The notes beneath the pieces are model-generated. The model ran no database searches and was not told the origin of the DNA. It was given only the letters and a program-made list of their open reading frames with translations. Of a DNA stretch of 64,000 nt, positions 20,400 to 23,524 are shown one piece after another (the stretch's first letter is position 1; the number at the start of each line of letters is the position of its first letter). Origin of the DNA: Burkholderiaceae bacterium (GTDB taxonomy: Bacteria > Pseudomonadota > Gammaproteobacteria > Burkholderiales > Burkholderiaceae_C); contig JAKLLA010000004.1 in the NCBI GenBank assembly GCA_023150375.1, positions 62,001-126,000 on the forward strand. Direction: 5' to 3'. A program made the position numbers and the translations under genes.

Positions 20400-20984
20400 T
20401 CAGCCGCGGGCGATCTTGAACACCGCAGTGCTGGCCCGCAGGTTCGGCAGCCGGCGCACGATGCGCCCCTCGTGCAGGCCGAAGGCTTCCAGCACCTGCA
20501 GGCCGCACTGGCGCGCCAGCACCTCGAAGTCGGCGAAGGTGCCCACGCGGATGTTCGGCGTGTCGTACCACTGGTAGGGCAGGGCCTTGGTCACGGGCAT
20601 GCGCCCGCGCAGCACGCTCAGCCGGTTCGGCCAGTGGGCGAAGTTGGGGAAGGCGACGATGCCGATGCGCCCGACCCGGGCGGTCTCGCGCAGCATGGCC
20701 TCGGCATTGCGCAGGTTCTGCAGGGTGTCGAGCTGCAGCACGACGTCGAAGCTGCCGTCGGCGAAGATCGCCAGCCCCTCTTCCAGGTTGCGCTGGATCA
20801 CGTTGACCCCGCGCTGCACGCAGGCCAGCACCTTGGCGTCGTCGAGCTCGATGCCGTAGCCGCTGCAGCGGCGTTCGCGCATCAGCAGTTCCAGCAGGCT
20901 GCCGCCGCCGCAGCCCAGGTCGAGCACATGGCTGCCCGCGGGCACCAGGTCGGCGATGAGGTGGTCGGTCTGGCGGTCGATCAC
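20400..20984 (-). CDS. metW: Methionine biosynthesis protein MetW
   Basis: A 194-residue protein with a SAM-methyltransferase fold: VLDLGCGGGSLLELL is motif I, followed by GIELDDAKVLACVQRG and DVVLQLDTLQNLRN. C-terminal NIRVGTFADFEVLARQCGLQVLEAF is typical of MetW. I start it at GTG 20984 because AGGAG lies six bases before and no in-frame ATG fits. MetW is required with MetX for homoserine acylation in several bacteria. A 16-codon ORF bridges the gap from the metX stop to this start, implying coupled translation. Confidence 0.92.
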   Translation of the reverse strand: MIDRQTDHLIADLVPAGSHVLDLGCGGGSLLELLMRERRCSGYGIELDDAKVLACVQRGVNVIQRNLEEGLAIFADGSFDVVLQLDTLQNLRNAEAMLRETARVGRIGIVAFPNFAHWPNRLSVLRGRMPVTKALPYQWYDTPNIRVGTFADFEVLARQCGLQVLEAFGLHEGRIVRRLPNLRASTAVFKIARG

Positions 20985-21031
20985 GGCAGGCTCCTGCGCA
21001 GCACCGGGCAGGGGGTTGCGCGTGCGCTCAT
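20981..21031 (-). CDS. 16-codon ORF bridging metX and metW, possible coupling peptide
   Basis: An ATG at 21031 overlaps the metX stop (ATGA), and 16 codons later ([16 protein letters not shown]) the TGA overlaps the metW GTG start (GTGA). The frame differs from both neighbours. A ribosome finishing metX could reinitiate here and be delivered to the metW start. Its peptide shows nothing recognisable, so translation itself is the likelier function. It could be chance in GC-rich DNA. Confidence 0.35.
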
Positions 21032-22161
21032 GCGCCCACCTCCCGGGCCACCCGCTCGAAGTAGGCCCGCACGATGGCGTGGTAGCGCGCATCGTCGAGC
21101 AGGAAGGCGTCGTGGCCGTGCGGCGCATCGATCTCGGCGTAGGCCACGTCGCGGCGGTTGTCCAGCAGGGCCTTGACGATCTCGCGCGAGCGCTGCGGCG
21201 AGAAGCGCCAGTCGGTCGTGAAGCTGACCACCAGGAACTTCGCCGTGGCCCGGGCCAGCGCCGCACTCAGGTCGTTGCCGAAGGGCCGTGCCGGGTCGAA
21301 GTAGTCCAGCGCCCGGGTGATCAGCAGGTAGGTGTTGGCGTCGAAGTACTCGCTGAACTTGTCGCCCTGGTGGCGCAGGTAGCTCTCGATCTGGAACTCG
21401 ATCTCCTGCGTGCTGTAGGCCAGCTCGGCCGAGCGCAGTGCGCGGCCGAACTTCTGCTCCATCGAGTCGTCCGACAGGTAGGTGATGTGGCCGATCATGC
21501 GTGCCACCCGCAGGCCGCGCCGCGGCAGCACGCCATGGGCGTAGAAGTGGCCGCCGTGGAAGTCCGGGTCGGTGATGATCGCGCGCCGCGCCACCTCGTT
21601 GAAGGCGATGTTCTGCGCCGACAGGTTCGGCGCGCTGGCAATCACCAGCGCGTGGCCCATGCGCTCGGGGTGCTGCAGGGTCCAGCTCAGCGCCTGCATG
21701 CCGCCGAGGCTGCCGCCCATCACGGCGGCCAGGCGTTCGATGCCCAGGCGGTCGAGCAGGCGCGCCTGCGCCTCGACCCAGTCCTCGACGGTCACCACCG
21801 GGAAGTCGGCGCCGTAGGGCCGGTCGGTGGCCGGGTTGCGGTGCATCGGGCCGGTCGAGCCGAAGCAGGAGCCTGGGTTGTTCACGCCGATGACGAAGAA
21901 GCGGTCGGTGTCCAGCGGCTTGCCGGGGCCGATCATGTTGTCCCACCAGCCCTCGCTGCGCGGCTGGCCGGCGTAGCTGCCGGCCACATGGTGGCTGGCG
22001 TTCAGGGCATGGCAGACCAGCACCGCGTTGCTGCGCGCGGCGTTGAGCTCGCCGTAGGTTTCGTAGACCAGCGTGTAGTCGGCCAGGCTGGCGCCGCTGC
22101 GCAGCGCCAGCGGTTGGGCGAAGTGCAGGCTCTGGGGGGTGACGTGGCCGAGGGATGCCAT
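21028..22161 (-). CDS. metX: Homoserine O-acyltransferase MetX
   Basis: A 377-residue alpha/beta-hydrolase-fold enzyme that activates homoserine for methionine synthesis. The nucleophile is S151 in [23 protein letters not shown] is the family oxyanion segment and [10 protein letters not shown] carries the catalytic His, with the Asp in the preceding strand. N terminus [17 protein letters not shown] is typical and fixes the start at 22161, although no good ribosome binding site precedes it. Some betaproteobacterial MetX proteins use succinyl-CoA rather than acetyl-CoA; the sequence alone does not decide. Expression is probably riboswitch controlled. Confidence 0.95.
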
Positions 22162-22170
22162 GGCAATCTG

Positions 22171-22213
22171 AAAAAACGAACCCGGCGTCGCAGCAAAGGG
22201 CGACCACCGGGTT
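22171..22213 (-). terminator. Intrinsic terminator in the metX leader
   Basis: Reading the minus strand, AACCCGG (22213-22207) pairs with CCGGGTT (22185-22179), and an inner GTCGC/GCGAC stem extends the hairpin; CG and six T follow at 22176-22171. It ends nine bases before the metX ATG, so it must be bypassed for expression. Confidence 0.8.
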
Positions 22214-22217
22214 GGTT

Positions 22218-22271
22218 TGCCCCTCTTTAGCGGCATTTCTAGAGCGCCCGCAAGTCGGACAAATCGGCGCT
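22218..22271 (-). promoter_or_regulatory. SAM-II-type riboswitch aptamer upstream of metX
   Basis: On the minus strand, AGCGC and GCGCT form P1 around a 19-base loop beginning CGATTTG and ending TTGCGG, followed by AGAAATGCCGCTAAAGAGGG. Against the SAM-II (SAM_alpha) aptamer as I remember it, loop and tail align without gaps, including the GATTT block, CCG, TTGC and the tail AAATG..GCTAAA.AGGG. It directly precedes a terminator and metX. SAM-II is known mainly from alphaproteobacteria, upstream of met genes. The alignment is from memory; the pseudoknot pairing was not resolved. Confidence 0.72.
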
Positions 22272-22278
22272 GCCCGGC

Positions 22279-22308
22279 AGTATAGGGGAGCCTCCGGCCT
22301 GGCGGGAA
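22279..22308 (-). promoter_or_regulatory. Probable sigma-70 promoter of metX-metW
   Basis: The minus strand has TATACT (22284-22279) as a -10 box and TTCCCG (22308-22303) 18 bases upstream as a poor -35. The predicted start is about seven bases downstream, at the beginning of the riboswitch P1 stem, which fits a short aptamer-first leader. Confidence 0.55.
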
Positions 22309-22498
22309 CGGCCCCGCGCACGCAAAAGGATTCACGGCCGATGGCCGGTCTCCCCGTGAACCCGGGATGGGCCCGACGGGGGGTCGAAGCGGAAAATTCT
22401 CACGAACGGCGTCCAGGGTCGGGCCCGTCCCGCCGGGGCGGCCTGACGTCCGGGATGCGCGCGCAGGGTGCGCGCGACACAGGCAGGAGGAGTTGCGC

Positions 22499-23524
22499 AT
22501 GAGTGCCGTACCCGGCTGGCAGCCGACCATCGTCGCGCCGCTGCCGACCGACAGCGAGGCCGCCGCGCCGGCTGTGCCCGGACCGCGTCGCCGCGGTCCG
22601 GCGGGCGGCAACGGGTGGGTGGTCGGCGTCGTGCTGCTGGCGGCCGCCCTGGCGGCGTGGCCGCTGTGGCCGGTGCTCGGCGTGGGCCAGGCGCTGGTCT
22701 GGCTGGGGTGTGGGCTGCTGGCCGCCGGACTGGTCTGGCGCTGGCAGGCGACGCGGCGGCGCCATGCGCGGGCCCGGCGGCGCCAGTCGGAGCGCCTGCG
22801 CGTGGCCGAGGCGGCCCTGCAGGCCACCCGGGCCCGTCTGCAGCAGCACGACCAGGCCGTGGCGCGCCGTGCCGAGGCGGCCCGGCAGCTGCGCGAACTG
22901 CACGACAGCGTCGGCGCCCGGCTCGTCTCGGCGTTGGCACTGGCGCAGCAGATCCCGGTCCAGCCGGGGGGCCTGATGCCGGAGGCTGCCCCGGCCCTGC
23001 TCACCGAACTGCGCCGGCAGGTCGAGGCGAGCCTGCTGGAGCTGCGCCTGGCCCTGGTGCACCTCGACGAGCAGCCGGGTCGTCCCCTCATCCATGCGCT
23101 GGCCGACCTGCGTGAGCAGGTCGAGCCGATGCTGGCCGAGTCGGGCATCGCGCTGGACTGGACGCTGGGCGAGGGCCTCGATCAGGTCGAACTGGGGGCC
23201 CGCACCACGATGCAGCTGCTGCGTCTGGCGCAGGAGGCGCTGTCCAGCGTGGCCTGCCACGCCGAGGGCGCACGGCGTGCCCGTCTGAGCGTCGATCGGC
23301 TGGAGGGCGAGGCCGGACCACACCTGCGGCTGGTGATCGGCGACGACGGTTCGCCGCCGAAGCCGGTGCAGGGCTTCGCGCCGACCCAGCCGCCGCTGCG
23401 CAGCCAGCTGGGGCCGGCGCGCTGGCAGCGCCATGCCCACGCGCTGGGTGGGCAACTGCTGGAGGTCGAGGCCGACCGCGGCTGGCAGGTCGACCTGGTG
23501 CTGCCGCTGCCGAGCGCGCGCTGA
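22499..23524 (+). CDS. Orphan membrane sensor histidine kinase, HisKA_3 type, degenerate ATPase
   Basis: A 341-residue protein with two membrane helices (about 39-59 and 62-80), a coiled coil (85-130) and a dimerisation/phosphoacceptor helix with [12 protein letters not shown]135 being the expected phosphate site. The ATPase part is altered: the N-box reads [13 protein letters not shown], with Ser in place of the invariant Asn, and the G boxes are reduced ([10 protein letters not shown] lacks a GxG; no GLxxM). There is no receiver gene beside it. The start at 22499 follows AGGAGGAG. It may be a weak kinase, a phosphatase or a pseudokinase. Confidence 0.8.

Follow-up and report, generated by a model that had tools for sequence, protein, structure and literature searches.

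Identity of the metX leader

The leader of metX and metW, on the minus strand of the 64,000-nucleotide stretch of Burkholderiaceae DNA analysed here (the window), raises the question of which regulatory RNA it encodes and how that RNA would act on the genes behind it. A first-pass annotation, made from the letters alone, had read it as a SAM-II riboswitch controlling metX-metW. Direct reading finds all of the blocks that it named (P1, GATTTG, CCG, TTGC, AAATG and the tail GCTAAAGAGGGG) in place, and confirms the TATACT box, which is separated from P1 by seven bases (Table 1). When the leader at 21900-22600 (701 bases) is scanned against all 4227 Rfam families, SAM-II (RF00521, SAM_alpha) is the sole family matching at E values up to 10, with a match at 22206-22280 on the minus strand that spans model positions 1-79 at 33.6 bits (E 8.9e-6). 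The expected score above the gathering threshold was narrowly missed, the match lying 2.4 bits below the gathering score of 36, so that standard automatic Rfam annotation of the window reports nothing. The alignment to the SAM-II consensus is also not gapless, as had been claimed, since the P1 loop has four positions fewer. Across the whole genome (4.63 Mb) the window copy is the top RF00521 match (E 1.4e-5), and as the next two matches stand at about E 7 (the better one at E 6.7), there is one credible SAM-II in the genome. P2 could form in the window through the pairs C22258-G22222, C22257-G22223, C22254-G22225, G22251-C22230 and C22250-G22231. The register of P2 is that of the SAM-II crystal structure, in which the SAM-contacting bases lie in the GAUUUG, UUGC and GCUAAA blocks. 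With a match to the full model, a single copy in the genome and conservation in congeners and across the order, the proposal is supported, and the leader RNA is, judged from its sequence, very probably a SAM-II riboswitch aptamer ahead of metX-metW.

Table 1. Features of the metX-metW leader and its genes in the window
Feature	Position	Strand	Remarks
-10-like box TATACT	22279..22284	minus	Read directly; expected transcription start at about the first P1 base
SAM-II aptamer	22221..22271	minus	RF00521 match; 51 bases
P1, AGCGCC/GGCGCT	22271-22266 with 22248-22243	minus	Six pairs, read directly
Block GATTTG	22265-22260	minus	Read directly
Block CCG	22258-22256	minus	Read directly
P2 5' strand	22258-22250	minus	
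Block TTGC	22253-22250	minus	Read directly
Block AAATG	22238-22234	minus	Read directly
P2 3' strand	22231-22222	minus	
Tail GCTAAAGAGGGG	22231-22220	minus	Read directly
Candidate antiterminator	22189..22232	minus	22232-22213 (P2 3' strand and spacer) pairs with 22206-22189 (terminator 5' arm and loop)
Intrinsic terminator hairpin AACCCGG...CCGGGTT	22179..22213	minus	Minimum free energy -20.8 kcal/mol
T6 tract of terminator	22171..22176	minus	Read directly; nine bases before metX ATG
metX	21028..22161	minus	377 aa; start codon at 22161; NF047916 675 bits, cut-off 560
metW	20400..21023	minus	Start codon provisional; TIGR02081 233 bits, cut-off 189.5, over 20403-21023

A consensus promoter scan of the window leader returned no full sigma-70 site, which points to a weak -35 element; among 129 related leaders, 107 have a TATAAT-like hexamer whose first base lies 22 to 6 bases ahead of P1, compared with 12 of at most 129 for an equivalent search 100 bases further upstream. 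The terminator hairpin of the window is more stable than all of its shuffled versions (0 of 200 as stable, z -3.5), and a consensus terminator scan did not report it. By NCBIfam NF047916 the metX product is a homoserine O-succinyltransferase, and its closest named relatives are the MetX proteins of an Ideonella MAG and of Caldimonas caldifontis, at 84% identity. A succinyl-type MetX would fit with the O-succinylhomoserine sulfhydrylase (MetZ) that the same element leads in relatives. The same genome also holds two SAH riboswitches (RF01057) above cut-off, at G000:C37:10045-10141 (L171) and G000:C2:11398-11517 (L172).

Conservation and range

RF00521 scores at least 36 bits in 12 of the 12 congeners searched, each reaching 36.3 or more, and passes its cut-off in 30 of 120 genomes taken from the own genome, genus, family and order (the own genome is included in this set as in the sets of 399 and 276 genomes below). 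In an alignment of 31 copies (A1), the window copy among them, GATTTG, TTGC and GCTAAA are invariant. The model R1, built from A1, gives the window copy 76.1 bits, a score to which that copy itself contributed, and, of 80 named Burkholderiales loci, detects the element ahead of metX in 74. Three of these 74 matches are partial (L086, L061, L051), at least four named loci (L053, L055, L071, L101) apparently come from genomes that supplied R1 sequences, and the R1 rows for L080 and L077 (minus strand, E 0.45 and 0.73) were counted as noise. The Rfam threshold reports 23 of the same 80 loci (10, 6, 3 and 4 in four batches) and hence hides about two thirds of the elements that R1 finds before named Burkholderiales metX genes.

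With E values up to 0.01, a cut-off at which some matches are weak, R1 finds the element in 283 of 399 genomes and 127 of 165 genera of the order (a few of these genomes also gave sequences to R1), often with two to four matches per genome. At the same cut-off it is found in 145 of 276 genomes of the wider class, or in 142 of 273 when the three members of the window's own family (G000, G120, G162) are set aside; 5 of 20 class loci picked from the R1 matches pass the Rfam threshold. MetJ, searched for with a view to mutual exclusion with SAM-II, is present in only 2 of the 276 class genomes. The first-pass annotation had called a SAM-II outside the alphaproteobacteria a notable occurrence; given this range, and the reports of SAM-II in beta- and gammaproteobacteria in 2005, 2007 and 2009, that description does not hold.

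Six named loci have metX and no aptamer (L057, L066, L072, L080, L085, L095), four of them from Rhodoferax; by eye, all six carry a TATACT-like box shortly before metX, and they could serve as natural controls for what the switch does. Several hundred bases ahead of metX, a manganese riboswitch (RF00080) is present in L046, L047, L052, L054, L062, L068, L081 and L089 and in the further Burkholderiales loci L092, L093, L096, L103, L104, L108 and L109, and downstream of metX in L084.

Covariation in the copies is good for P1 and only partly shown for P2. The outer P1 pair forms in 103 of 130 distinct copies (AT 62, CG 23, TG 11, TA 3, GC 2, GT 2) and in 21 of 26 dissimilar copies (those less than 0.85 alike), and in both sets none of 5000 shuffles scores as high. 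For P2, the pair L-5:T3 forms in 101 of the 130 copies (CG 53, TA 30, TG 10, AT 7, GC 1) and the pair L-4:T2 in 89, again with 0 of 5000 shuffles as high for either. Since these two were chosen from a table of all column pairs and the 130 copies are related, a check on the 26 dissimilar copies was added: here L-5:T3 forms in 17 (CG 5, TG 5, TA 4, AT 3), with 403 of 5000 shuffles as high, and L-4:T2 in 18, with 1541 of 5000 as high, which is uninformative. Among the 130 copies the pair L-1:T0 is borderline (220 of 5000 shuffles), L-6:T4 is unsupported, and P2a is almost invariant and shows no covariation; the comparison of the whole loop with its own and with swapped whole tails gives no signal (z +0.6).

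Genes behind the element

Downstream genes were assigned as the first recognised gene by tblastn in the right frame, and the identities of MetZ, MetK and MetH were confirmed on one example each (for MetH an N-terminal part, below the whole-protein cut-off). Among 154 loci, in which L115, L116 and L117 duplicate L005, L006 and L016, the gene is MetX in 119, of the MetZ family in 24, MetH in five, MetK in four and none of these in two; two of the 24 (L142, L151) have only about 34% identity to the MetZ query and may be MetZ relatives. MetX follows the motif in all 74 named loci that carry it, and in the own genome and its relatives (31 loci) the counts are MetX 27, MetZ three and none one. The 49 further loci of the order divide into MetX 18, MetZ family 21, MetH five, MetK four and none one, shares that are not those of a random sample because 20 of the 49 (L143-L162) were picked by hand from genomes with several matches. 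Outside the order, among 28 loci picked from R1 matches (three of them repeats), MetZ is directly downstream in 22, MetK in two, a more distant MetZ-like gene follows further on in one (L188), and three have none of the four genes, one of which (L191) reads as MetE-like by eye.

SAM-II thus stands before metH in L119, L129, L134, L147 and L152, before an apparent metE in L191, and before metK in L122, L127, L135 and L120 of the order and in L168 and L184 of the class. The accessible text of Leyn et al. 2014 (PMC4239095) states that none of the known methionine regulators controls metK in beta-proteobacteria. One locus (L198, genome G722) has two SAM-II copies about 1.24 kb apart, where, by eye, the gene behind the first copy resembles a homocysteine methyltransferase and the one behind the second is MetZ/MetY-like; in L188 (G512) the MetZ-family match lies at a distance similar to this spacing.

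A further group of loci has tandem leaders, in which a canonical SAM-II is followed by a terminator and then by a second, divergent SAM-II-like aptamer (L187, L193-L196 in G683, L197/L213 in G567, L203 in G540, L209 in G583, L024 in G092 and L133 in G427). The second aptamer scores 44.1 bits with R1 in L197, 25.4 in L133 and about 15 to 23 in the others that were scored; in L203 and L209 it was found by eye, and the first copy of L209 is cut by the contig start. Eight R1 matches occur in G683, of which five were read. The open reading frames behind the tandem leaders hold no recognisable methionine genes: that of L197 is a MoxR-type AAA ATPase, and those of L187, L195, L024 and L133 give no Pfam match apart from an HD-domain protein further on in L195. 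Three other matches to the second-aptamer pattern (L199, L201, L214) lie inside genes and look like chance. Tandem SAM-II with a terminator followed by translation control is already described in the accessible passages of PMC2704228 and PMC9481103.

Terminator pairing and mode of control

Of 121 distinct leaders, 110 have a terminator-like hairpin behind the aptamer, and none was detected in the other 11. Hairpins of -14 kcal/mol or better are found in 109 of the 121, compared with 18 of 121 dinucleotide-shuffled sequences and 7 of 121 upstream stretches. An attenuator would require a structure that competes with this terminator. The candidate antiterminator of the window is the predicted fold of the truncated leader, and is no better than in shuffles (z -0.14). 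In many species, the tail strand GCTAAAG and the variable bases next to it are complementary to the terminator in its 5' arm and loop, as in L006, where CTAAAGCG pairs with CGCTTTAG. The duplex of tail and terminator was compared across 46 dissimilar representatives of 109 leaders (the 121 minus 11 without a terminator and one with a gap over 45), and here tails pair better with their own terminators than with swapped ones (mean duplex energy -16.57 vs -13.43), a value that none of 20000 permutations reached. No preference for the own terminator is seen with five other leader segments. Both halves of the tail contribute to the preference (conserved half 0 of 10000, variable half 14 of 10000), which is repeated outside the order in 15 dissimilar loci (21 of 10000). 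This covariation of tail and terminator across relatives supports transcription attenuation, as read from sequence comparison. The duplex of the window itself is ordinary, with a rank of 0.56 among all loci and 0.47 among the representatives and a shuffle z of -0.79; as the pairing is present and not unusually strong, antitermination is supported for the family, and we infer it for the window member.

The order of events that these features suggest is as follows. Transcription would start near P1, and with plentiful SAM the ligand would bind in a pocket made of GAUUUG, UUGC and GCUAAA and fix the pseudoknot P2, in which the tail GCUAAAGAGG is paired with the P1 loop. With the tail locked in P2, the terminator hairpin would form with its U6 tract, RNA polymerase would stop some ten bases short of the metX ATG, and metX would be off. 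With scarce SAM, the free tail would instead pair with the terminator's 5' arm and loop, and formation of this antiterminator would allow metX-metW to be transcribed. For the window, we infer the binding of SAM, SAM-dependent termination, the exact antiterminator pairs and a single metX-metW transcript, and we hold it highly likely that the SAM-II riboswitch turns metX-metW off by transcription attenuation. The mechanism of SAM-II was not experimentally established as of 2007, according to the accessible text of Barrick and Breaker 2007, and the pairing of tail and terminator offers a concrete antiterminator model for this class.

The same aptamer could also act mainly on translation, with P2 hiding a GAGGGG ribosome-binding sequence that serves metX at a distance and with a constitutive terminator. 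This is the arrangement reported for metA of Sinorhizobium meliloti, where, in the accessible part of PMC9373788, a Shine-Dalgarno sequence inside the SAM-II P2 matters for initiation 74 nucleotides downstream and the intervening terminator is not predicted to be SAM-dependent. The window does have GAGGGG in P2 and no obvious Shine-Dalgarno sequence before the metX ATG, and AGG, GGA or GAG occurs within the first eight bases after GCTAAA in 84 of 129 related tails. However, only 19 of the 129 tails begin with GAGG, so the sequence is not strictly kept, and a constitutive terminator leaves unexplained why terminators are present in most related leaders and covary with the tail. Mainly translational control at this locus is accordingly unlikely.

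The metXZ element and the standing of the window copy

A second alternative concerns the ligand. As far as the accessible text goes, Leyn et al. 2014 (PMC4239095), scanning with Rfam profiles, saw SAM_alpha in no groups other than Rhizobiales and Rhodobacterales, and described a novel element, metXZ, which in 35 genomes of betaproteobacteria precedes metXW or metZ. This element has six conserved regions, of which 1 with 4 and 2 with 6 form a pseudoknot and 3 and 4 are GC-rich, an A-or-C letter in its consensus, and terminators behind it whose sequence is not conserved. Were metXZ an unrelated regulator, as its description as new would have it, the window RNA could be that element and respond to another ligand. 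This is very unlikely, as the metX leader RNA aligns with SAM-II from end to end with the three pocket blocks unchanged in the aligned copies, more than a quarter of the named loci pass the Rfam threshold itself, and the published text description of metXZ fits the RNA before metX. By that description, the metXZ element appears to be the same RNA as SAM-II, which would have gone unrecognised because of the Rfam cut-off. No paper linking metXZ with SAM-II is among the matches listed in a search of the open-licence literature, and the link seems unreported.

Decay of the window copy to a leader that no longer switches would be in line with its Rfam score, the lowest in the genus, and with a tail-terminator pairing that is not special. 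Against this, its pocket blocks, P1, both P2 pairs, terminator and -10-like box are all intact, its five-base loop TCCGA has the same length in other loci (TCCGG), and its R1 score is high, with the reservation that R1 is partly built from it; loss of function is thus hardly probable. The possibility that a GC-rich leader looks like the SAM-II consensus by accident, for which only the score below the gathering score could speak, is already refuted in practice by the genome-wide E value, the position exactly before a methionine gene and the conservation in genus and order.

Taken together, the data make it likely that the orphan metXZ element is SAM-II, and that SAM-II, mostly unseen at the Rfam threshold, is a main attenuator of methionine genes in Burkholderiales and in much of the wider class, standing before metX, metZ, metH, metK and once an apparent metE and acting through its SAM-binding strand, GCUAAAG, which would base-pair with the terminator in its 5' arm and loop. 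If true, this would supply the ligand for a regulatory RNA described in 2014 without one.

Comparison with known systems

The SAM-II class, its taxonomic range and its arrangement with terminators are already known. In the accessible text of Corbino et al. 2005 (PMC1273637), SAM-II is described in alphaproteobacteria with few occurrences elsewhere, many copies have putative terminators, and Bordetella bronchiseptica is named in the legend of the alignment; SAM-II with terminators in beta-Proteobacteria is discussed by Barrick and Breaker 2007, again in the part accessible. The window RNA resembles the metA element of Corbino et al. (RF00521) in P1, in the complementarity of P2, in the GAUUUG, UUGC and GCUAAAG blocks, and in its place before a methionine gene, with a promoter-like box just ahead of P1 and a terminator past P2. 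It differs from the Rfam SAM-II in the P1 loop shorter by four positions, in a score under the curated cut-off, and in that its aligned relatives have a nearly fixed GCGC in P1 and TTGCGGGCGC. The metZ and metA leaders of S. meliloti likewise combine SAM-II with an intrinsic terminator, whereas control of metA, as given in the accessible part of PMC9373788, is translational at a distance with a terminator not predicted to be SAM-controlled, unlike the model for the window. SAM-V and the tandem SAM-II leaders of PMC2704228 and PMC9481103 have, by the passages accessible, a pocket similar to that of the window RNA, and differ from the window leader in that the latter has one SAM-II aptamer.

The element also resembles metXZ, which shares, in the accessible description of PMC4239095, the position before metXW or metZ in betaproteobacteria, a pseudoknot and a terminator after it. 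The invariant blocks of A1 can be matched to its six regions as GCGC, GATTTG, (A/C)TTGCGG, GGCGC, AAAT and GCTAAAG, with the third and fourth adjoining, and an A or C precedes TTGC in 130 of 130 copies. Leyn et al. propose regions 3 and 4 as the antiterminator partners, whereas the covarying partner found here is the last block, and they give a single copy per genome, whereas many genomes here have two to four matches; the accessible text makes no connection of metXZ with SAM-II. The single occurrence in the window is ordinary; what deserves attention is the new reading of metXZ, together with the covariation of tail and terminator.
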